Below are positions 7,783 through 14,999 of a stretch of 64,000 nucleotides of DNA, one piece after another (the first letter of the stretch is position 1; every line of letters begins with the position of its first letter). Source of the stretch: Serinicoccus hydrothermalis. Lineage in GTDB: Bacteria; Actinomycetota; Actinomycetes; Actinomycetales; Dermatophilaceae. The stretch covers positions 124,001 to 188,000 of the forward strand of contig NZ_CP014989.1 in NCBI RefSeq assembly GCF_001685415.1, in the 5' to 3' direction. The notes below the pieces were generated by a model, which saw only the letters and a list, made by a program, of their open reading frames with translations, was not told where the DNA came from and made no database searches. A program made the position numbers and the translations under genes.

Positions 7783-7832
7783 GGGCCTGTAGCTCAGTTG
7801 GTAGAGCGCCGCGTTTGCACCGCGTAGGTCGT
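7783..7832 (+). pseudogene. 5' fragment of host tRNA-Val(TAC), split by integration
   Basis: The acceptor 5' strand GGGCCTG (7783-7789), T8-A9, a D-arm with GCTC/GAGC pairing and an anticodon arm CCGCG-loop-CGCG can be laid out. After position 7832 there is no T-arm and no 3' acceptor strand. The 3' half that fits it, including CGGGCCC, lies at 14976-14997 across the element. The anticodon loop here reads TTTGCAC, which would be alanine. The intact copy reads TTTACAC, so the G is probably from the element side of the crossover. Confidence 0.85.
7810..7832 (+). other. attL core
   Basis: The repeat reads CGCGTTT, then G, then CACCGCGTAGGTCGT. It covers the 3' side of the tRNA anticodon stem-loop and the variable loop. 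Beyond it the sequence departs completely from the tRNA T-arm. Confidence 0.85.
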
Positions 7833-7848
7833 GCTTGGCAGGGGGGCC

Positions 7849-7930
7849 TGACCAGCACCGGAGGATCCATAAAAATGCAGGTCAAACGCCATATCTGGCT
7901 ATATAAAATCTAGGCAATACTCTGACCTGC
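7849..7930. promoter_or_regulatory. left-end regulatory or excision sites
   Basis: TGACCAGC (7849-7856), GCAGGTCA (7877-7884) and TGACCTGC (7923-7930) form direct and inverted copies of one 8-mer. They flank an AT-rich TATAAAAT at 7902-7909. This could be the int promoter with its operators, or accessory sites for excision. Confidence 0.35.
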
Positions 7931-7949
7931 GGCGACGTCCTGCGGGTTT

Positions 7950-7970
7950 GGTGTTCGCATGTTGTTCGCA
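7950..7970 (+). repeat. integrase arm-type site, left copy
   Basis: A 21-bp sequence holding two GTTCGCA heptamers ten bases apart. A copy with a single mismatch stands at 14838-14858 near the other end, in the same orientation. Its position inside attL and just upstream of int fits arm-type binding sites of tyrosine integrases. Confidence 0.6.
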
Positions 7971-8019
7971 CTCGTGCCATGCTTGGGGTCCAACGACCTA
8001 CGCACAGACAGGCAGCGAC

Positions 8020-9096
8020 ATGGCATCAGTGCACCAGCGGGGCAAGGGCTGGACGGTCCGCTACCGGACGCCCATGGGAACCAACGCCCAACGGACGTTC
8101 AAGGCACATCGGGACGCCCTGGCGTTCAAGGCAGAGGTAGAGGTAGACACCGCGAGGGGCACGCTGCTTGACCCCACCAACAGACGCTTGACCTATGCCG
8201 ACTGGCACGACAACTGGATGCAGCACCGTCCCGACCTTCGGGAGTCCTCGCGCATCCGAGCACAGAGCATCGCCAGGGTTCACCTGCTGCCGACCTTCGG
8301 GCACCTGCCGGTGCAACGGATCACACAACCAGACGTGCAGACGTGGGTGACCAAGCAGACCGGCTCACCGGCCACCGTGCGACGCAACTATGGAGAGTTG
8401 AGCGCGAGCCTGGATGCTGCCGTGACTGCCGGGGTGCTGACACTGAGTCCCTGCCGAGGCATCCGACTCCCCAAGGCAGTCCGTGCAGACATGGTGATTC
8501 TCGATCATGACGAGATTGAGCACCTTGCCTCATGCATCCTGCCCCGCTACCGGGCGCTGGTCTACCTGTTGGCCTACGGGGGTCTGCGTGTGGGCGAAGC
8601 ACTGGACCTTGTGCGCTCTGACATTGATCCCATCGCGAGCACGGTCAGGGTGGACAGCACCGTCACGGTAGGTAAAGGCGGCAAGAAGGCGTCAGGACGC
8701 CCCAAGAGCGACGCAGGTATGCGGACGGTGCCGTTGCCGTCGAAGGTGACCGCCATGCTTGCTGAGCATAAGCTGCACTTCCCTGGTGACTACGTGTTCA
8801 CCGGGGGTAGGGGAGCACAGATACACGTCAGCAACTTTGGTGAGCGCACGTTCAAGAACGCCGTAGCCGTGTGGAACGAGCAGCGGGCAGAGCAAGGACT
8901 AGACGAGAAGCATCCTCGCGTTCATGACCTCCGGCACACGGCTATCACGCACTGGATCAGGCTCGGAGCAGACCTGCCACGCATCAAGACCTGGGCCGGG
9001 CACACCAACGCTGCCTTCACGCTGAACCAGTACGCCGGGTACTTCCCAAGTGATGACAGCGCCTTCATGGACGCTCTGAACCAGGGGATCGGCTAG
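8020..9096 (+). CDS. int: tyrosine-type site-specific integrase
   Basis: It catalyses integration and excision of the element at the tRNA core. The 358-residue protein starts with a short arm-binding region, then a SAM-like core-binding domain (about 57-145), then the catalytic domain. The catalytic set is complete: Arg190 in GGLRVGEAL, a lysine near 229 in the beta-hairpin, His302 and Arg305 in HDLRH, His328 in WAGH, and the nucleophile Tyr338 in NQY. The ATG at 8020 gives the usual MASVHQR-type start of actinophage integrases; the frame is open further upstream but that stretch overlaps the arm site. It points into the element. Confidence 0.95.
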   Translation: MASVHQRGKGWTVRYRTPMGTNAQRTFKAHRDALAFKAEVEVDTARGTLLDPTNRRLTYADWHDNWMQHRPDLRESSRIRAQSIARVHLLPTFGHLPVQRITQPDVQTWVTKQTGSPATVRRNYGELSASLDAAVTAGVLTLSPCRGIRLPKAVRADMVILDHDEIEHLASCILPRYRALVYLLAYGGLRVGEALDLVRSDIDPIASTVRVDSTVTVGKGGKKASGRPKSDAGMRTVPLPSKVTAMLAEHKLHFPGDYVFTGGRGAQIHVSNFGERTFKNAVAVWNEQRAEQGLDEKHPRVHDLRHTAITHWIRLGADLPRIKTWAGHTNAAFTLNQYAGYFPSDDSAFMDALNQGIG

Positions 9097-9620
9097 CGCA
9101 AACACTCCCCGCAACGGGCCTGTGTGCCGTTCTGAGACGCGTTCAAATAGCTAGGGCGGTCCTGGGCCGCTGACAATTTGTCGTCTGCGACAGAGGCGTG
9201 CAGACAGCACTGTAGGCAAGTTGCGCTACTGGCTCGGCGCGTAGGTAAAAAATCACTGTGTCGCACGTCACACCACTAATCTAGGAGTCGCACAAAACCG
9301 CAGGTCGCGAGGGGTGGGTAAAATAGGTCTGGGGCGTCATTGGGAGTAGAGTTGCAGCATCGAAGGGCAAGCCTTTCGGAAATTGACAACTTCACAGTGA
9401 CTACAGGCCTGAGGCTTCACTTGACGCTAACGTAAAGCATGTCAGTTTGTAACAAATGTGAATTTTTCGATGACATGTCCAGACCGGGCAGCGCAAATAC
9501 TTCAGGCATTACGATAGTGTGCCCATAAATTTGCAAAGCACCCCCGCCAGCACAAGTGCCAACGGGGGCGACAGCCAACATCGAATCACTTCAATTATAC
9601 CAGCAAGGCAGGAATAGACC
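9097..9620. other. non-coding AT-rich region with hairpin
   Basis: I see no convincing gene here. At 9541-9568 there is a compound hairpin: CCCCCG pairs with CGGGGG and an inner GCAC pairs with GTGC around AA. It lacks a following T-run, so it may be a replication structure, not a terminator. TTGACA- and TTGACG-like hexamers occur near 9384-9426 without good -10 partners. Confidence 0.5.
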
Positions 9621-10020
9621 TCTATCCTCACACACCGTGAAGACTTGAAGATATGAAGATAACCCCGGTCTCATGCGGATTTCCTTGAAGATAGTTTTGA
9701 GGATAGTTGAAGATAGTCGTACGCCGGGGCATAAACTTAGCAAAAAGAATCCTCAGCAAAGACGAAACGTGTGGCAAAGAGAAGGTCCGTGTATGAAGTA
9801 GTTAATAAGGGTTTTTAGATATGAATATTTATAGATACAGACAGCCTTCCCTCTTGCCGGGCACTTTCCTTTGCTACCTAAAGTCTGCCTTTGCCCCCTT
9901 AAATCAGTGCGCCGTGCCGCAACTATCCTCAACACTATCTTCACGAATATCCCAGTGTTTCCGGGCTTATCTTCTTATCTTCAAGTCCTCAACCACATGA
10001 GACGCTGAGGTTGACGATAG
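9621..10020. other. candidate replication origin with facing iteron arrays
   Basis: A repeat with consensus TTGARGATAGT occurs on the plus strand at 9645, 9654 (shortened), 9685, 9697 and 9707. It occurs in the opposite orientation at 9922-9932, 9934-9943, 9967-9974, 9975-9984 and 9986-9992, with a further inverted copy at 9621-9630 and a variant TTGACGATAG at 10011-10020. The close copies are spaced 8 to 12 bases apart. Between the two clusters lies an AT-rich stretch, richest around 9798-9840, that could unwind. The arrangement resembles iteron origins of plasmids and phage satellites, and a RepA-like ATPase is encoded just downstream. Confidence 0.65.
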
Positions 10021-10047
10021 CGATATTTCTAAGAATGTTCTCGCCAT

Positions 10048-10076
10048 TTGCAGAATGAGGGCAGTGATGGTATGAT
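10048..10076 (+). promoter_or_regulatory. promoter of the replication gene cluster
   Basis: TTGCAG at 10048-10053 and TATGAT at 10071-10076 are spaced by exactly 17 bases. The first gene starts 65 bases further down. It lies next to the repeat array, so repeat-binding proteins could control it. Confidence 0.7.
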
Positions 10077-10140
10077 GAATACATCTTCGTAGGGCCGCAG
10101 ACCTTACGGAGAAATACATTAAAGAAAGCGAGAACAAAAT

Positions 10141-10347
10141 ATGGACAAGAAGTTTAGAGATTATTACAACGGACGCCTAGCGGCACTGTTTGCTGACTCA
10201 ACGTTCGCCACCACCGCCGACCTTGCCGCAGCGCTGGACGTGACGGACGACGACAACGCAGCACGGGCCGTACGCACCATGGCGCGGGACATTGGATACC
10301 CGCTAGAGCATATGCGCCGGAACAGGTGGGTGACCGGTCAGTCATGA
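10141..10347 (+). CDS. small predicted DNA-binding protein
   Basis: A 68-residue protein with a likely winged-helix or helix-turn-helix fold: TTADLAAALDV looks like a recognition-type helix pair, followed by ARAVRTMARDIGYPLEHMRRNRWV, where a helix leads into a wing and a basic end. This could be an excisionase, an iteron-binding initiator or a regulator. It is the first gene after a good promoter, and its stop overlaps the next start (ATGA), so it is translated together with the ATPase. No named family is recognised. Confidence 0.7.
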   Translation: MDKKFRDYYNGRLAALFADSTFATTADLAAALDVTDDDNAARAVRTMARDIGYPLEHMRRNRWVTGQS

Positions 10348-11510
10348 TCGACACCAGCCGATATCGAATCACAAATATCGCAATTCCCGACCGTACGTGG
10401 ATCATCCCTGGTTTGTTAGAGCAGGGACGCTACCATTTGATCTACGGAGACAAGGGGGCAGGCAAGTCAACCTTCATTGCCGGTCACATCATCCCCGAAG
10501 CACTGTCGGGCGGCATTGAGCGGGTCGTCTTTGTCTCTCCTGGTGAAGAGACCACACATGTTGACCTTCGTCTCTACGCAGCAGCACATGGCTATGACCC
10601 AGACAAGGTGCTCTATTTTAATGCTGACCCGATGCGAGTGCCCAAGCGCACTATTGATTGGGACGAATCTGACAATCGCAAGGAGTGGGTGCTAGAAGAT
10701 GACGACCTTGCTGCTGTGATGCAGTTCTATTTCCCTTACGACGAAAGAGGGTTGTCAGAAATCATAAAGCGCGAGGGTGGGTTTGAGTTCAATGCGGGCG
10801 ACATGATCGTCAACTTTGATCTTTTGCGACTCATTGAGAGTCTGACGCAGGACAAGGTTCCGACGTTATACATTACCGAGGATATCGAAGGGTCGCTGTC
10901 TCCCGACCGCCTGAAAACCTACGGAGGAACTGACACCGTTCAGAACGCTGCGTGGAAATTGCTCATTAGCGACATTCAGCGCGCTCTAGGTCAGCGAGAC
11001 GCCTTCATCGACGTGACCCACACCAAGAAGGGTGATTCGTCCCAGATCAAGGGCAGCACGGGGCGCTTCGACCGAGCACGACATGCAATCAGGCTCAATC
11101 GCCACGACGACGGGGGTAGCCGCTACACGACCGTAGTGGGCACCGGCAACGCGTCAGGACAGGACTGGCAGCGCGAGCGCATCATCGGGGTACGTCCTGT
11201 AGATGAGGGGGACATGCTTGCCGCTTTCGGGTCAGCCACCATCAAGCATCGCGTGCCCTACGTCGTCTATGACGGCCTGGGGAACAAGTCTGACGAGCAG
11301 GTTGCCCGACTGCTGGCGCTGGACTGGTCAGAGCCGCGCACGACCGCTGAGGTTGTCGTTGCTCTGGGTCTACGTGCAGAGGACGCCAGCAACAAGAACG
11401 ACGCGCGCATGTGGGACGGGGCACGATCCGCCTTGGACAACCACACGTTCGTCAAGGAAGGTCGCGGGCGCTGGTCTTGGCCTACGGCACCGGACGGTGA
11501 ACCGTCATGA
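10344..11510 (+). CDS. RepA-like AAA/RecA-fold ATPase
   Basis: A 388-residue P-loop ATPase, probably the replication helicase or initiator of the element. Walker A is GDKGAGKST at residues 35-43, a Walker B-like strand is TLYITEDIE, and a second sensor-like strand is AFIDVTHTKK. The C-terminal 70 residues look like a winged helix (TTAEVVVALGLRAED to HTFVKEGRGRWSW). The layout agrees with RepA/AAA_25 helicases of plasmids and phage satellites. The ATG at 10344 overlaps the previous stop, and the stop overlaps the next start, so the chain is tightly coupled. An upstream in-frame GTG at 10326 is possible but less likely. Confidence 0.85.
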   Translation: MIDTSRYRITNIAIPDRTWIIPGLLEQGRYHLIYGDKGAGKSTFIAGHIIPEALSGGIERVVFVSPGEETTHVDLRLYAAAHGYDPDKVLYFNADPMRVPKRTIDWDESDNRKEWVLEDDDLAAVMQFYFPYDERGLSEIIKREGGFEFNAGDMIVNFDLLRLIESLTQDKVPTLYITEDIEGSLSPDRLKTYGGTDTVQNAAWKLLISDIQRALGQRDAFIDVTHTKKGDSSQIKGSTGRFDRARHAIRLNRHDDGGSRYTTVVGTGNASGQDWQRERIIGVRPVDEGDMLAAFGSATIKHRVPYVVYDGLGNKSDEQVARLLALDWSEPRTTAEVVVALGLRAEDASNKNDARMWDGARSALDNHTFVKEGRGRWSWPTAPDGEPS

Positions 11511-11647
11511 CTTGCCCCGCATGCATGGCAGCAAGCGAAGCCCTGACCTACAGCAAATATCCGAATGACCCTCTCTATGCCACGTTGGCACAGCAGTGGA
11601 CAGAAATTTATGAAAAATTGGCGAAAGCCGGAAAGGAAACGAAATGA
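11507..11647 (+). CDS. 46-residue protein with CxxC motif
   Basis: A very small gene kept in the coupled chain: its ATG overlaps the ATPase stop and its TGA overlaps the next ATG. The product begins MTCPACMAASEAL and ends in a charged helix. One CPAC pair could be half of a zinc knuckle completed by dimerisation or by a partner. No family is recognised. The double ATGA overlap is the main support for its reality. Confidence 0.65.
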   Translation: MTCPACMAASEALTYSKYPNDPLYATLAQQWTEIYEKLAKAGKETK

Positions 11648-11847
11648 ATCACGAAGCACTAGGAAATGAAGTAGCGGAACTTTTAGACGAGGGCGTGGAG
11701 GACTTCATGCCGACTCTATGTCAACGACACCCTGGAATCACAATGCAGGATGTCCATATTGCCTATCACGTTTACCCAATGAATCACACGTTAGATGGGG
11801 AAAATGAATGCGACGACGTGGATGCTCAATTGAGGAATCGATGGTAG
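11644..11847 (+). CDS. small acidic hypothetical protein
   Basis: A 67-residue acidic protein with two predicted helices, the first around ALGNEVAELLDEGVEDFM, and a histidine-rich middle (YHVYPMNH). It ends the replication operon; a strong terminator follows about 60 bases later. It resembles small helper proteins of actinophage early regions only in size and charge, and I do not recognise a family. Confidence 0.65.
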   Translation: MNHEALGNEVAELLDEGVEDFMPTLCQRHPGITMQDVHIAYHVYPMNHTLDGENECDDVDAQLRNRW

Positions 11848-11907
11848 AATAAAATCATCAGGTTAGACGGGCAAGAATCAATAGCCGTTTAATTCTCCTT
11901 TAGTTGG

Positions 11908-11944
11908 AAGGGGGAGGGGTTACGCGATGCCCCTCCCCCTTTCG
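11908..11944 (+). terminator. rho-independent-type terminator after the replication genes
   Basis: A 12-bp perfect stem, AAGGGGGAGGGG with CCCCTCCCCCTT, around a 10-base loop, followed by T and C bases. It separates the replication module from the capsid module, which implies that the capsid gene has its own promoter. Confidence 0.85.
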
Positions 11945-11995
11945 TAAGTCTTACTGTCGGACTCTAAACGACCGGTGTTTTACCTGTTTTCTCAA

Positions 11996-12066
11996 AACCT
12001 GGACGTCCAAGGTTGCAGACTTCGATTTCCTTAGATTAGCGAAGGTTAAGCGCAGGCATGGCCTGC
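11996..12066. promoter_or_regulatory. candidate operator/promoter region of the capsid gene
   Basis: AACCTGGACGTCCAAGGTT at 11996-12014 is a near-perfect palindrome. A TTGCAG -35-like hexamer at 12013-12018 overlaps its edge, without a clear -10. A second inverted repeat, GCAGGC and GCCTGC with a 3-base loop, is at 12052-12066. Control by a phage or element regulator is plausible. Confidence 0.4.
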
Positions 12067-12112
12067 CCGTCCATCGGGACGCTAAACCTATTCAATAATT
12101 TTAGGAGTCATT

Positions 12113-12907
12113 ATGACTGAAACAACTAACACCGCAGGCAAGGGGTGGGCACCAGACGTACAAGGATTTGTCGCTGCCGAAGTGCTACCTAACCTGCTTA
12201 TCACTGAAATCACCACTGTCGCCGGTGCAGTAGAAGGCGACGAGGTTGCACTACGCGTTCCATATGTCGGAGACGTAGCAACCGAACTCATTGCAGAAGG
12301 CGCACCGCTGACGGAGCAGGACGCAGACCTTGACGAAGTTGTCGTCAACACTCACAAAGTCGGTTCCCTGGTCGTGCTGTCCAACGAACTGGCACGCAAC
12401 TCTGCCGAGGGCATCCTTGCCGAAGGTCTGTCCCGCAACGTCATGCTCGGGGCGAACCACGCTCTGCTCAACAACGCGAGCGCACCGACCGGCATCCTCA
12501 ACGCCGCGAACATCACCGACGGGGGAGCACTCGGGGACAACCTAGATGCTGTCTCTACCGCCATGTGGGGCATCGTGGAAGCCGGAGGCACTGCCGACTA
12601 CATCCTGGCCGCACCGTCCGCCATGGGAGCGCTGAGCACCCTCAAAGCGGGCACCGGGTCCAACCAGTCCCTTGTGACTGAGCCAGTCCTGTATGGCTTG
12701 AACGTGCATGTCACCAACGCCATGCCAGCAGACACGATCCTGGTCGGTAGCCGTAGCGCCGTCGTGAGCGCCGTAGGTCCGGTACTGCTAGCCAAGAGCA
12801 GCGAGTACGCCTTCAACCGCGACGCACGCGCCGTGAGAGTTACCTTCCGATCCGGCTGGACTGTCACCAACGCTGACCGCCTGGTCAAGATCAGCACCGC
12901 AGCCTGA
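12113..12907 (+). CDS. HK97-fold phage major capsid protein
   Basis: A 264-residue capsid subunit of the HK97 gp5 family. Recognisable blocks are VGSLVVLSNELARNS, the APTGILN segment, LYGLNVHVTNAMPADTILVG in the A-domain, and the end VRVTFRSGWTVTNADRLVKI. The usual N-terminal scaffold-like delta domain (around 100 residues) is absent, and no protease or scaffold gene is nearby. A clear AGGAGT ribosome site precedes the ATG. It may co-assemble with, resize or poison capsids of a helper phage. A relic of a prophage head operon is the alternative. The reading frame is intact. Confidence 0.9.
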   Translation: MTETTNTAGKGWAPDVQGFVAAEVLPNLLITEITTVAGAVEGDEVALRVPYVGDVATELIAEGAPLTEQDADLDEVVVNTHKVGSLVVLSNELARNSAEGILAEGLSRNVMLGANHALLNNASAPTGILNAANITDGGALGDNLDAVSTAMWGIVEAGGTADYILAAPSAMGALSTLKAGTGSNQSLVTEPVLYGLNVHVTNAMPADTILVGSRSAVVSAVGPVLLAKSSEYAFNRDARAVRVTFRSGWTVTNADRLVKISTAA

Positions 12908-12935
12908 CGCCCACGAAGGAGTGGAAGAGCGGAGC

Positions 12936-12974
12936 GCGGGGAGAGGTAGGCAAATATCGCTTGCCTCTCCCCGC
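12936..12974 (+). terminator. long hairpin between capsid and HNH genes
   Basis: GCGGGGAGA pairs with TCTCCCCGC, and GGCAA with TTGCC, around a 7-base loop; GGTA bulges on the left arm. No T-run follows, so it may be a partial terminator, an RNA-stability element or a processing site. Confidence 0.5.
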
Positions 12975-13001
12975 ACCAAATACATTTAAGGAGCAAGATC
13001 A

Positions 13002-13463
13002 ATGAGCAGAGATAACAGCGCTAAATGGAAGAACTTACGTAAGGACTTCCTGAACACGCTAGAGGATGACAGGTGCGCGGGGTGCGGAGAGTATGTAGAC
13101 CTGTCGCTGTCCGGCATGCATCCCCAGGGTCCGACTGTAGACCACATCAAATCCGTAGAGTTCTTTCCCGAACTAGAGTTTGAGAAATCGAACCTGCAAC
13201 TCATGTGCAGGACGTGCAACACCAGCAAGCACGCTGGTCCCAGGTCAAGATCAAAAGCAAGCAGGAAGCAGGAGCCAATTACGCCGTTTCCTTTGCCTGA
13301 GTCGCAGGTCTTTCCGGGTCAAACGAAGCACATGCTTTACAGTCATGGTATCTACAGACTGAATGGTGGCATGCCAGGGTTCGGAACAAATTGCACTGTA
13401 ACATTTGACGATGATGGAGCCATTGTCGAAGTCATCAAGTACGAGATAGACGAGTACGTTTGA
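13002..13463 (+). CDS. HNH endonuclease
   Basis: A 153-residue HNH nuclease. Zinc ligands are Cys25 and Cys28 (CAGC) and Cys69 and Cys72 (CRTC), the catalytic pair is Asp47-His48 in TVDHIKSV, and Asn64 lies in SNLQL. The C-terminal half after residue 90 is unassigned and strand-rich. In many tailed phages an HNH gene lies beside terminase or head genes and helps packaging; here it follows the capsid gene but no terminase is present. AAGGAG at 12988-12993 supports the start. Confidence 0.9.
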   Translation: MSRDNSAKWKNLRKDFLNTLEDDRCAGCGEYVDLSLSGMHPQGPTVDHIKSVEFFPELEFEKSNLQLMCRTCNTSKHAGPRSRSKASRKQEPITPFPLPESQVFPGQTKHMLYSHGIYRLNGGMPGFGTNCTVTFDDDGAIVEVIKYEIDEYV

Positions 13464-13566
13464 CCACCCCGGTAACCCCCTTCACCCTTTCGGGCGCGCT
13501 CCTACCACGGTGAGCGGAGAAATATCTCCCCCGGGAATATATCCACAATGGGCGGCAGTCCAGACT

Positions 13567-14085
13567 CTAATCCCTATCGCGCGTCGCTCTTTCTCCGGCA
13601 GCTTGCTCGGCCGTAACATCCCTGATGCTTTTTATGAGTTGCTCGCTGTCCGGGTGTGACTTTTCTCCTTGGATGATCCACCTAGTCTGGTTGTACAAGG
13701 CGTAGGTTGCACTTTCCACGTTCTCCTTCGCGGTGCCGACCTGTTCTTTACTGGCGGTCCTGTCAGCCAAGACTTCAATCTGTTGGCGCAGATAGAACCA
13801 TGTCTCGTAAGGTTCGTCCGGACCTAACAGAATGAGTCTGGCTTCCAATGCCTGGAACGAGTGCCAGAAGTCTTGGCTCCGCATCGTGGTCCGGTTGGCA
13901 AGGAGTTCATGGGCGTCAGTGTAGGCCTTCAGACGTTGGTCTCTAAGCCAATTCTTACGTTCGCGTCGATCGGTTAACCAGGACGCGAGGAATACGGCAA
14001 CTATCGTTGCTAATGCGGTGAGAGCGTAGAAATACCACGGTAGCCCTGCAGGCGCTTGTACGATAACGGAGGGACGGCCGAACAT
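13567..14085 (-). CDS. single-pass membrane protein, cargo candidate
   Basis: A 172-residue protein with one transmembrane helix at about residues 17-37, followed by a basic stretch (DRRERKNWLRDQR) that places the long helical remainder in the cytoplasm. No enzymatic motif is seen. It is the second gene of a two-gene unit read against the rest of the element, 11 bases after the first. Opposite orientation and location next to attR are typical for lysogenic cargo such as superinfection-exclusion or anti-phage genes. This role is inferred from position only. Confidence 0.75.
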   Translation of the reverse strand: MFGRPSVIVQAPAGLPWYFYALTALATIVAVFLASWLTDRRERKNWLRDQRLKAYTDAHELLANRTTMRSQDFWHSFQALEARLILLGPDEPYETWFYLRQQIEVLADRTASKEQVGTAKENVESATYALYNQTRWIIQGEKSHPDSEQLIKSIRDVTAEQAAGERATRDRD

Positions 14086-14096
14086 TTGTCACCCCG

Positions 14097-14675
14097 CTAC
14101 GGAGCGCTGCGCTCATCTGGATTTGTTTGCGTCGATTTTGTTTGCGCTTCCTGGTTTGTGGGTGGCTTATTCATGCTATTCTCGCTCCCGGCGCTGCGTG
14201 TTGCCATGGAAGGTAAGGACCTGAGATTTCGTGCTGAGAGGGGTATGAGGTTTCGCACGCCCTTTGCTTGGCAAAGCCCGAAGAAAATACGAAAGTGCGG
14301 TAATGTGGCGGCGAAGGCGAACATGGCAGTAAATATCAAGGCAAGGCTAAGAAGTGAGTTGAACCAGTACAAGGCGTTCATCGGATCTTCTTCAGCCTGT
14401 GGTTGTGTCGAAAGGTAGAAGCCGCCCATCGCGGATAGGTTTACGATAATTAAGAGCAAAAGAAGAACTATGGAGTGGTAAATTAGAGCCGGAATGAATT
14501 TGTGCGCATCTGAAGCGATCTGTTCATAGAGCCTAAATTCTTTTTCACGAGTGGCCCGTCTCCGCGCATCTCGCTTATTTTGGCTCTTGTTGTACGCGCG
14601 AGCGAGGGGCAATGACAACAAGAACACCAAGGCCGATGCCAGCACCCCGCTAATGAAACCGTTCATGTCAGGCAT
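14097..14675 (-). CDS. multi-pass membrane protein, cargo candidate
   Basis: A 192-residue protein with three hydrophobic segments, at about residues 8-27, 65-87 and 105-125. A basic, coiled-coil-like linker (KRDARRRATREKEFRLYEQ) lies between the first two, and the polar tail is rich in Ser, Thr and Asn. It belongs to no family I recognise. It is the first gene of the minus-strand pair, and the two products may act together at the membrane. Its promoter region holds paired repeats. Confidence 0.75.
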   Translation of the reverse strand: MPDMNGFISGVLASALVFLLSLPLARAYNKSQNKRDARRRATREKEFRLYEQIASDAHKFIPALIYHSIVLLLLLIIVNLSAMGGFYLSTQPQAEEDPMNALYWFNSLLSLALIFTAMFAFAATLPHFRIFFGLCQAKGVRNLIPLSARNLRSLPSMATRSAGSENSMNKPPTNQEAQTKSTQTNPDERSAP

Positions 14676-14687
14676 GCTCTGGACGCT

Positions 14688-14743
14688 AGCCGACCCTGCG
14701 AGTGATTGGCGGTGCCCTCACGGCGTGTCTGACAGCCGACCCT
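14688..14743 (-). promoter_or_regulatory. paired direct repeat upstream of the membrane-protein pair
   Basis: AGCCGACCCT occurs at 14688-14697 and 14734-14743 in the leader of the minus-strand pair. The spacing of 46 bases suits two operator sites bound by one regulator. No clear -35/-10 pair is visible. Confidence 0.4.
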
Positions 14744-14752
14744 CTCTGACGT

Positions 14753-14858
14753 AAGTGTCATCAAGTGTCACGCTGCGAACGGGCGCGAACAGCGGGGGAG
14801 GGCACCAAATCAGGTATCGTGCGTGTCGCGGTTCGCTGGTGTTCGCATCTTGTTCGCA
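14753..14858. repeat. right-end integrase arm-type sites
   Basis: AAGTGTCA occurs twice, ten bases apart, at 14753 and 14763. Inverted GCGAAC copies follow at 14775-14780 and 14785-14790. At 14831-14858 there are three GTTCGC copies, of which 14838-14858 repeats the left arm site at 7950-7970 with one mismatch. Confidence 0.55.
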
Positions 14859-14925
14859 TCAGAGGCAGTTTCTCGATAGTTGAGAGCGCTCGACTTGGAC
14901 AACGGCGCAGGTCAGCGGCCTAGAT

Positions 14926-14998
14926 GGGCCCGTACTTCAGTTGGTAGAAGAGCGCGTTTACACCGCGTAGGTCGTCGGTTCGAGCCCGGCCGGGCCCA
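14926..14998 (+). tRNA. tRNA-Val(TAC), rebuilt with an element-derived 5' half
   Basis: The full cloverleaf folds: acceptor GGGCCCG with CGGGCCC (7 of 7 pairs), T8-A9, D-stem CTTC/GAAG, anticodon stem GCGCG/CGCGT around TTTACAC, T-stem GTCGG/CCGGC with TTCGAGC, discriminator A. CCA is not encoded in full. The core repeat 14953-14975 lies inside it, so everything left of the core came from the element. Its D-stem differs from the host fragment at 7783 in both strands together. A candidate promoter is TTGTTC at 14850-14855 with GATAGT at 14875-14880. Confidence 0.92.
14953..14975 (+). other. attR core
   Basis: CGCGTTT, then A, then CACCGCGTAGGTCGT, the second copy of the direct repeat that bounds the element. 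It spans the anticodon loop, the 3' anticodon stem and the variable loop of the tRNA. Confidence 0.85.
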
Positions 14999-14999
14999 C

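Follow-up and report, generated by a model that had tools for sequence, protein, structure and literature searches.

Among known phage satellites, some lack head genes, others encode a size-switch protein and others again bring a complete head operon. The size switches described are Sid, CpmAB, Ccm, TcaP and Rcm (PMC12409344), and phage-inducible chromosomal minimalist islands (PICMIs) are reported to use unmodified helper shells (PMC10803314). In SaPIbov5 the capsid homologue Ccm is sufficient to redirect phi12 shells; Ccm occupies pentamers and makes no capsids alone (PMC8569155). Candidate phage-inducible chromosomal islands (PICIs) of Mycobacterium, including those resembling phiRv1 and phiRv2, are described as regions with an integrase and a major capsid gene, some with a scaffold or terminase gene; their helper induction is undemonstrated in the same account (PMC10654092). 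Here we describe an integrated element of 7,143 bp that carries a single capsid gene, located in a tRNA-Val(TAC) gene of Serinicoccus hydrothermalis and adjoined by a peroxiredoxin-like gene and nif3. It lies in a 64,000-nt stretch of contig NZ_CP014989.1 (positions 124,001 to 188,000), referred to below as the window, whose numbering is used throughout.

The element shares with SaPIbov5 a lone, satellite-borne capsid homologue (PMC8569155). Like the capsid-forming PICIs (cf-PICIs), it encodes a capsid protein of its own together with an HNH nuclease; the cf-PICIs, however, also have genes for protease, portal, connectors and the two terminase subunits (PMC10690885), none of which was recognised in the window element. 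By description it is also like the candidate Mycobacterium PICIs, which have tyrosine integrases at tRNA genes and in some cases a helicase, although its host is outside Mycobacterium and it lacks a scaffold or terminase gene. The description (PMC10654092) applies equally to the elements considered here, which carry it beyond Mycobacterium into other actinobacteria. Both the candidate Mycobacterium PICIs and Ccm are close precedents for the window element.

The element is real and satellite-like, its capsid gene is maintained, and within a broader actinobacterial group it represents a variant that lacks the scaffold. An earlier model-generated reading of the DNA (the original prediction) is supported in part: its satellite-like element, integrated and equipped with a replication module and a single capsid gene, holds up. 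Arguing by analogy, we lean somewhat towards a phage-satellite-like element whose capsid protein would work through the morphogenesis of a helper. Such an element would excise and self-replicate during infection by a tailed helper phage, and its capsid protein would enter the helper assembly pathway, either co-assembling with the helper capsid protein and switching shell size, like SaPIbov5 Ccm, or building shells on the helper's scaffold. Packaging of the satellite would then fall to the portal and terminase of the helper, perhaps with help from the HNH nuclease, and helper tails would be added. We favour this satellite reading because of the clean insertion with empty sites in relatives, the same gene order in a diverged sister copy, the purifying selection on the capsid gene, the related capsids in small elements with varied replication modules, the absence of the scaffold in two lineages, the iteron swap at the same place in the sister, and small Mycolicibacterium aichiense records with scaffold and capsid relatives. 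That a lone capsid might redirect a helper is plausible because SaPIbov5 Ccm does so; the capsid remodelling suggested by the original prediction is, by the same token, already known for this homologue and not a novelty (PMC8569155).

A more specific proposal is offered tentatively: a class of actinobacterial satellites may have dropped the scaffold more than once and supply only a mature-form, delta-less capsid protein that builds or resizes shells on a helper scaffold, possibly under control of the conserved leader preceding the gene. The present survey adds to the known satellites small actinobacterial elements with scaffold and capsid, and at least two lineages with a capsid and no scaffold. 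If the lone capsid does use a helper scaffold, these lineages would provide a natural test of co-evolution between capsid, scaffold and shell size, and of minimal satellite coding.

Several points weigh against the involvement of a helper. Ccm has 355 residues and a delta domain, whereas the window protein has 264 residues and none (PMC8569155), and no homologous helper capsid is known here, since no closely related capsid was found in a phage in either the phage collection or viral_contigs. Apart from the sister copy in genome G015 of the same genus, the closest aligned capsids (17 relatives) are only 30-46% identical, and the sister capsid gene itself carries a frameshift close to codon 104. 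Neither a cos nor a pac site was identified. A search of the source genome with Phage_portal gave no match, a weak negative given that the same tool with PF05065 missed the resident capsid. The profile phrog_2, which we take to be the large terminase, gave five partial matches in the source genome (G000) and G015, covering 83-139 of 807 profile positions (E 1.4e-5 to 2.6e-5, frames of 327-1772 aa); we read them provisionally as other ATPases, which is again a weak negative for a terminase in the element's own genome.

The integrated element and its sister copy

The ends of the element are formed by a 50-nt imperfect direct repeat (84% identity) at 7783-7832 and 14926-14975, its copies spaced 7,143 bp apart. 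This repeat agrees with the right end first predicted, 14975, and moves the left end from 7810 to 7783. The right copy makes up the 5' portion of an intact tRNA-Val(TAC), and the tRNA is restored at attR: the chromosomal 5' half was left at attL and the element supplies a replacement 5' half. The GC content of the element is 55%, against 70% for the window. Its features are as follows.

7783..7832, + strand: attL, remnant of the host tRNA-Val 5' half; anticodon now TGC, TAC in the G015 copy
8020..9096, + strand: tyrosine integrase, 358 aa; Pfam 6.7e-18, PHROGs
9638..9991, no strand: origin-like region with GAAGATA iterons in two inverted clusters
10141..10347, + strand: open reading frame (ORF) of 68 aa, p68; 39% identical to G015 over residues 12-68
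10326..11510, + strand: RepA-like AAA_25 ATPase; Pfam 4.7e-08, PHROGs weak (best E 0.00086)
11507..11647, + strand: ORF of 46 aa, p46; 41% identical to G015
11644..11847, + strand: ORF of 67 aa, p67; 41% identical to G015, not a scaffold by hidden Markov model (HMM)
11848..12112, + strand: pre-capsid leader, 265 nt; strong predicted hairpin, then 128 nt resembling G015
12113..12907, + strand: major capsid protein, 264 aa, HK97 fold, mature form; Phage_capsid (Pfam) 8.1e-18, PHROGs, TIGR01554
13002..13463, + strand: HNH nuclease gene, 153 aa; Pfam 2.4e-07, PHROGs
13567..14085, - strand: membrane-type protein, 172 aa; hydrophobic stretches by eye
14097..14675, - strand: membrane-type protein, 192 aa; hydrophobic stretches by eye
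14926..14999, + strand: attR, intact tRNA-Val(TAC); 5' part from the element, 3' part from the host

The source genome is a single contig of 3.6 Mb. The nif3 gene is present in all 31 genus genomes, G000 included, and 30 loci were returned and examined (none from G024). In 20 of these the site is empty, with peroxiredoxin, an uninterrupted same-strand tRNA-Val and nif3 adjacent to one another; two are occupied (G000 and G015), and eight have another arrangement around nif3 from which occupancy could not be called. The insertion is real, since relatives hold one uninterrupted tRNA-Val between the peroxiredoxin-like gene and nif3. A full prophage at this site in close relatives, which the original prediction had named as a finding that would make the element a deletion remnant, was not seen in any of the 22 resolved loci, and nothing points to a recent prophage remnant.

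At 32.2 bits, the left tRNA remnant (7783-7860) still exceeds the gathering threshold of the Rfam tRNA model (29 bits) and is probably a drifting pseudo-tRNA. Its anticodon at first sight raised an integration-driven swap of tRNA identity (left TGC, Ala; right TAC, Val). This was rejected, since the left remnant of G015 and the empty sites of relatives read TAC, and the window remnant has therefore drifted.

The closest relative of the element is the copy in G015, which occupies the same tRNA site and holds the only other capsid match among the 31 genus genomes. A search of the family gave capsid matches in 12 of 186 genomes (G000 and G015 included), the next best after G015 being 45% identical. 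Genes in the sister are arranged as in the window element, plus one Lsr2-like gene; the recurrence of the gene order, proposed as a check by the original prediction, is thus seen at the same tRNA site, in one sister only. Identity between the two copies varies widely, from 97% for the integrase through ~70-75% for the capsid and ~59% for RepA to 36-38% for HNH. The window has seven GAAGATA/TATCTTC sites within 840 bp, which exceeds the maximum of six copies (mean 2.9) reached by the commonest 7-mer in 200 shuffles and upholds the predicted origin-like repeats; Pfam matches likewise confirmed the predicted integrase, RepA-like ATPase, capsid and HNH genes. At the matching place (13062-13884 of the sister locus, L004), G015 has nine copies of GGTGATA. 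The differing iterons and RepA proteins suggest that related replicons have traded modules, apparently with a change of replicon specificity. In searches of the family and the order, the RepA-like ATPase was matched in no genome other than G000 and G015, and it had no match in the phage and plasmid collections.

Between the two copies, the ratio of non-synonymous to synonymous substitution (dN/dS) of the capsid gene is 0.13 over codons 1-100 and 0.18 over codons 118-264 (dS 1.2-1.5), and the capsid has therefore been selected for function over most of the divergence. Corresponding values are 0.05 for the integrase and ~0.14 for RepA, the latter with saturated dS. Decay of the capsid in sister copies had been put forward by the original prediction as evidence against it; the sole known sister does carry a frameshift, which may be a recent mutation or an assembly error, and both halves of the gene are under purifying selection. 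The integrase, p68, repA, p46, p67 and HNH genes of G015 are all open frames. A genome search had shown one TGA inside the sister repA, but the aligned reading frame has none.

These data bear on whether the element is a degenerate remnant of a scaffold-plus-capsid satellite or prophage, its capsid heading to loss, which we regard as unlikely. The frameshift in G015, the missing scaffold and the mutated left tRNA remnant would all fit such decay, but the window genes are open, the capsid dN/dS is low, the compact order is kept in a diverged sister, the scaffold-less state also occurs in a separate mycobacterial clade, and the resolved loci hold no fuller prophage.

The capsid protein and its leader

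The capsid protein scores 55.4 bits with TIGR01554 (cut-off 27.5), matching model positions 146-383 of 385. Because the match begins at position 146, the protein lacks the delta domain, the N-terminal third, and the HK97-fold capsid without this domain in the original prediction is borne out. When a profile of 18 capsid sequences was compared with solved structures, the best phage capsid matched was 9lbm (3.8e-11), and the HK97 gp5 entry 2fs3 was matched at 1.7e-06. An AlphaFold2 model (mean pLDDT 81.7, pTM 0.78) gave phage capsids phiXacJX1, HK97 and D3 as best Foldseek matches, with TM ~0.6 and a root mean square deviation of 4-12 A.

The last 128 nt before the capsid gene (window 11985-12112; L004 11092-11222) have 92 of 123 aligned bases identical to G015 (75%), compared with 43% in the preceding stretch and ~70% in the capsid gene itself. 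This segment folds better than shuffles in both copies (z -2.2 each). The scaffold-less mycobacterial elements described below also have long conserved leaders. No RNA structure shared with the mycobacterial leaders was established, the L074 and L115 leaders folding no better than shuffles. The leader was considered as a shared packaging signal and rejected, as the pre-capsid motif occurs in no viral_contig and, among the 31 genus genomes, once each in G000 and G015 only. No match to the window or L115 leader was found in the phage collection. Rfam gave two tRNA matches and one below-threshold match (E 0.94), and a scan for promoter and terminator consensus sequences found no excess over shuffles.

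Related elements and scaffold-less lineages

Searches of genome_contigs with the capsid profile identified at least 17 loci across Actinobacteria, in Mycobacterium, Flaviflexus, Knoellia, Leucobacter, Rhodococcus, Brevibacterium, Propionibacterium, Xylanimicrobium and an actinomycete metagenome-assembled genome. At E 1e-25, the profile matched 11 of 394 sampled class genomes and 15 of 347 order genomes (G000 in each). Seven capsid loci with 25-30% identity were found in viral_contigs, and plasmids gave no capsid match. Integrase and capsid together span 5.0-8.0 kb in 20 close-clade loci (those with both recognised, the window and G015 included, two contigs counted twice and five distant loci omitted). 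Most often the integrase gene is followed by a replication gene, small ORFs, the gene for a scaffold-like protein (~145-200 aa), a gap and finally the capsid gene; the gap starts with a strong predicted hairpin and measures 157-179 nt in seven scaffolded loci. Replication genes vary among the elements and include AAA_25, D5-like, DUF3631, DUF3987 and primase-like types.

The upstream protein was called a scaffold from its position, its coiled-coil-like sequence (EAAKYRRxLRE) and an HMM match. The scaffold HMM matched the annotated scaffold of a Mycolicibacterium phage at E 1.5e-24 in a small ORF set. With PHROGs, five scaffold-like proteins gave weak results: a scaffold family was hit by one of them (0.0017) and a head-protease family by another (0.021), and the rest matched no named family. 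In 30 chosen ORFs from 20 related loci (10 by Pfam, 20 by PHROGs) there was no match to portal or large terminase; 12 were matchless and one had a weak tape-measure match (0.00077). A head-tail adaptor follows the capsid in L062, L068 and L115, and L115 has in addition a minor-tail-like gene that also matches a small terminase, though more weakly. Capsid relatives at a greater distance, L024 and L026, adjoin further head genes, such as a head-morphogenesis match in L026 (6e-07). The original prediction had placed the element as an intermediate between P4-like and capsid-forming satellites. It does not look like one: its nearest capsid relatives are mostly in small scaffold-plus-capsid elements, and the window element is therefore more plausibly a derived form from which the scaffold is missing.

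In a tree of 49 capsids, the scaffold was recognised by HMM (E below 1e-5) in 41 loci and not in eight. Duplicates (L085, L066, L073, L100), broken loci (L107, L094, L097), loci whose capsid match fell short of 1e-20 and the initial segment of the G015 capsid had been dropped beforehand. Five of the eight are clearly scaffold-less, namely the window, G015 and, in a mycobacterial group, L074, L089 and L096. Two coiled-coil-like ORFs upstream in L112, and a short one seen by eye in L103, may be divergent scaffolds; the eighth locus is L111. The window and G015 group together (100/100), as do L074, L089 and L096 (100/99), which fall inside a supported group with the scaffolded L018 and L092 (99/95). 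The window pair sits on a long branch (0.82) in the clade of the scaffold-plus-capsid elements, its exact placement weakly supported (81/35 at the fork). Two separate losses of the scaffold would be the simplest reading of this tree.

The scaffold profile found nothing in the genomes G000, G015 and G695, and G141, G184 and G744 were matched in the same search. A scaffold hidden in the element was rejected, the best score being 6.1 bits (E 0.44) when the scaffold HMM was run with filters off on stop-to-stop frames of at least 30 aa. Since its own genome has no match to the scaffold family, a scaffold, if used, would be external or of another family. G744, of the mycobacterial group, contains one scaffold-less and one scaffolded element (L116, L117), with a further scaffold hit elsewhere.

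The missing scaffold could also mean that the capsid protein self-assembles into a small satellite shell in the manner of encapsulins, with a helper giving portal, terminase and tail. Scaffolds are absent from two lineages, and encapsulins do appear among the Foldseek fold matches, at ranks 45-46. However, the better-ranked matches are mostly phage capsids, and the protein scores 15.1 bits with encapsulin model NF041188, far below the cut-off of 180, so that it does not qualify as an encapsulin, whereas it exceeds the cut-off of the phage-capsid model. Considering also the scaffold-like gene in most of the related loci, we give self-assembly a low probability and retain the preference for a capsid acting through helper morphogenesis.

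Matches to the window capsid in the phage collection were confined to 12 Mycolicibacterium aichiense records of 10.9-11.1 kb (including Suzzy and Alyssa1). These small genomes likewise combine a related capsid with a scaffold, an integrase and replication genes, but their capsids are 29-32% identical over 43-71% of the protein and the integrase is of the serine type. The two records examined (L027, OR387120.1; L028, OR387110.1) add terminase (small subunit in L027, by PHROGs), connectors and a tape measure protein. The scaffold is annotated in one and HMM-matched in both, and neither record, deposited as a complete phage, has an annotated portal or large terminase. We infer that the ~11-kb records are satellites recovered as particles; if so, members of the broad group do get packaged. 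No paper on them was found among the titles listed. The Charybdis elements, considered as a match, are of a different kind, without a recognised hallmark capsid in the accessible text (PMC12324425). Titles and abstract starts yielded nothing on lone-capsid actinobacterial elements beyond the papers cited, most subscription papers being outside the coverage of the search.

Two side observations concern duplication of the capsid gene. L026 (G051) has two apparently identical copies of the capsid region ~10 kb apart on one contig, with larger head-gene sets. In L088 and L120 (G668), a 111-aa N-terminal capsid fragment lies between the scaffold and the intact capsid, a partial capsid duplication.

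HNH nuclease and membrane-type genes

Portal, large terminase, protease, tail and lysis functions had no match among the element ORFs scanned (10 by Pfam, 9 by PHROGs). This agrees with the original prediction; the one exception is a small-terminase profile, phrog_4581, which the HNH protein matches weakly and at domain level (4.2e-06). The capsid is followed by an HNH gene in the window, in G015, in L018 and, by a weak match, in L074, with hits downstream in L113 and L114; in L062 the hit is upstream of the scaffold instead. A possible role of HNH in packaging is suggested by analogy with the HNH nuclease of cf-PICIs (PMC10690885). A Septu-type defence function was set aside, as PtuB matches were weak and domain-level and no PtuA partner was noticed.

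A lone capsid homologue without packaging genes could instead be a dominant inhibitor of helper assembly, serving the host rather than transfer of the element, and the membrane-type genes near attR may be accessory defence genes. No defence model matched the two membrane-type proteins, however, and an integrase and replication module that are maintained, with iterons exchanged between copies, fit mobility. We consider such a poison unlikely. The two membrane genes of the original prediction correspond to ORFs with hydrophobic stretches, a call made by eye. The slot on the attR side holds membrane-type genes in both copies (window 13567-14675; L004 8777-9184) with little mutual similarity, and these are possible accessory or exclusion genes.

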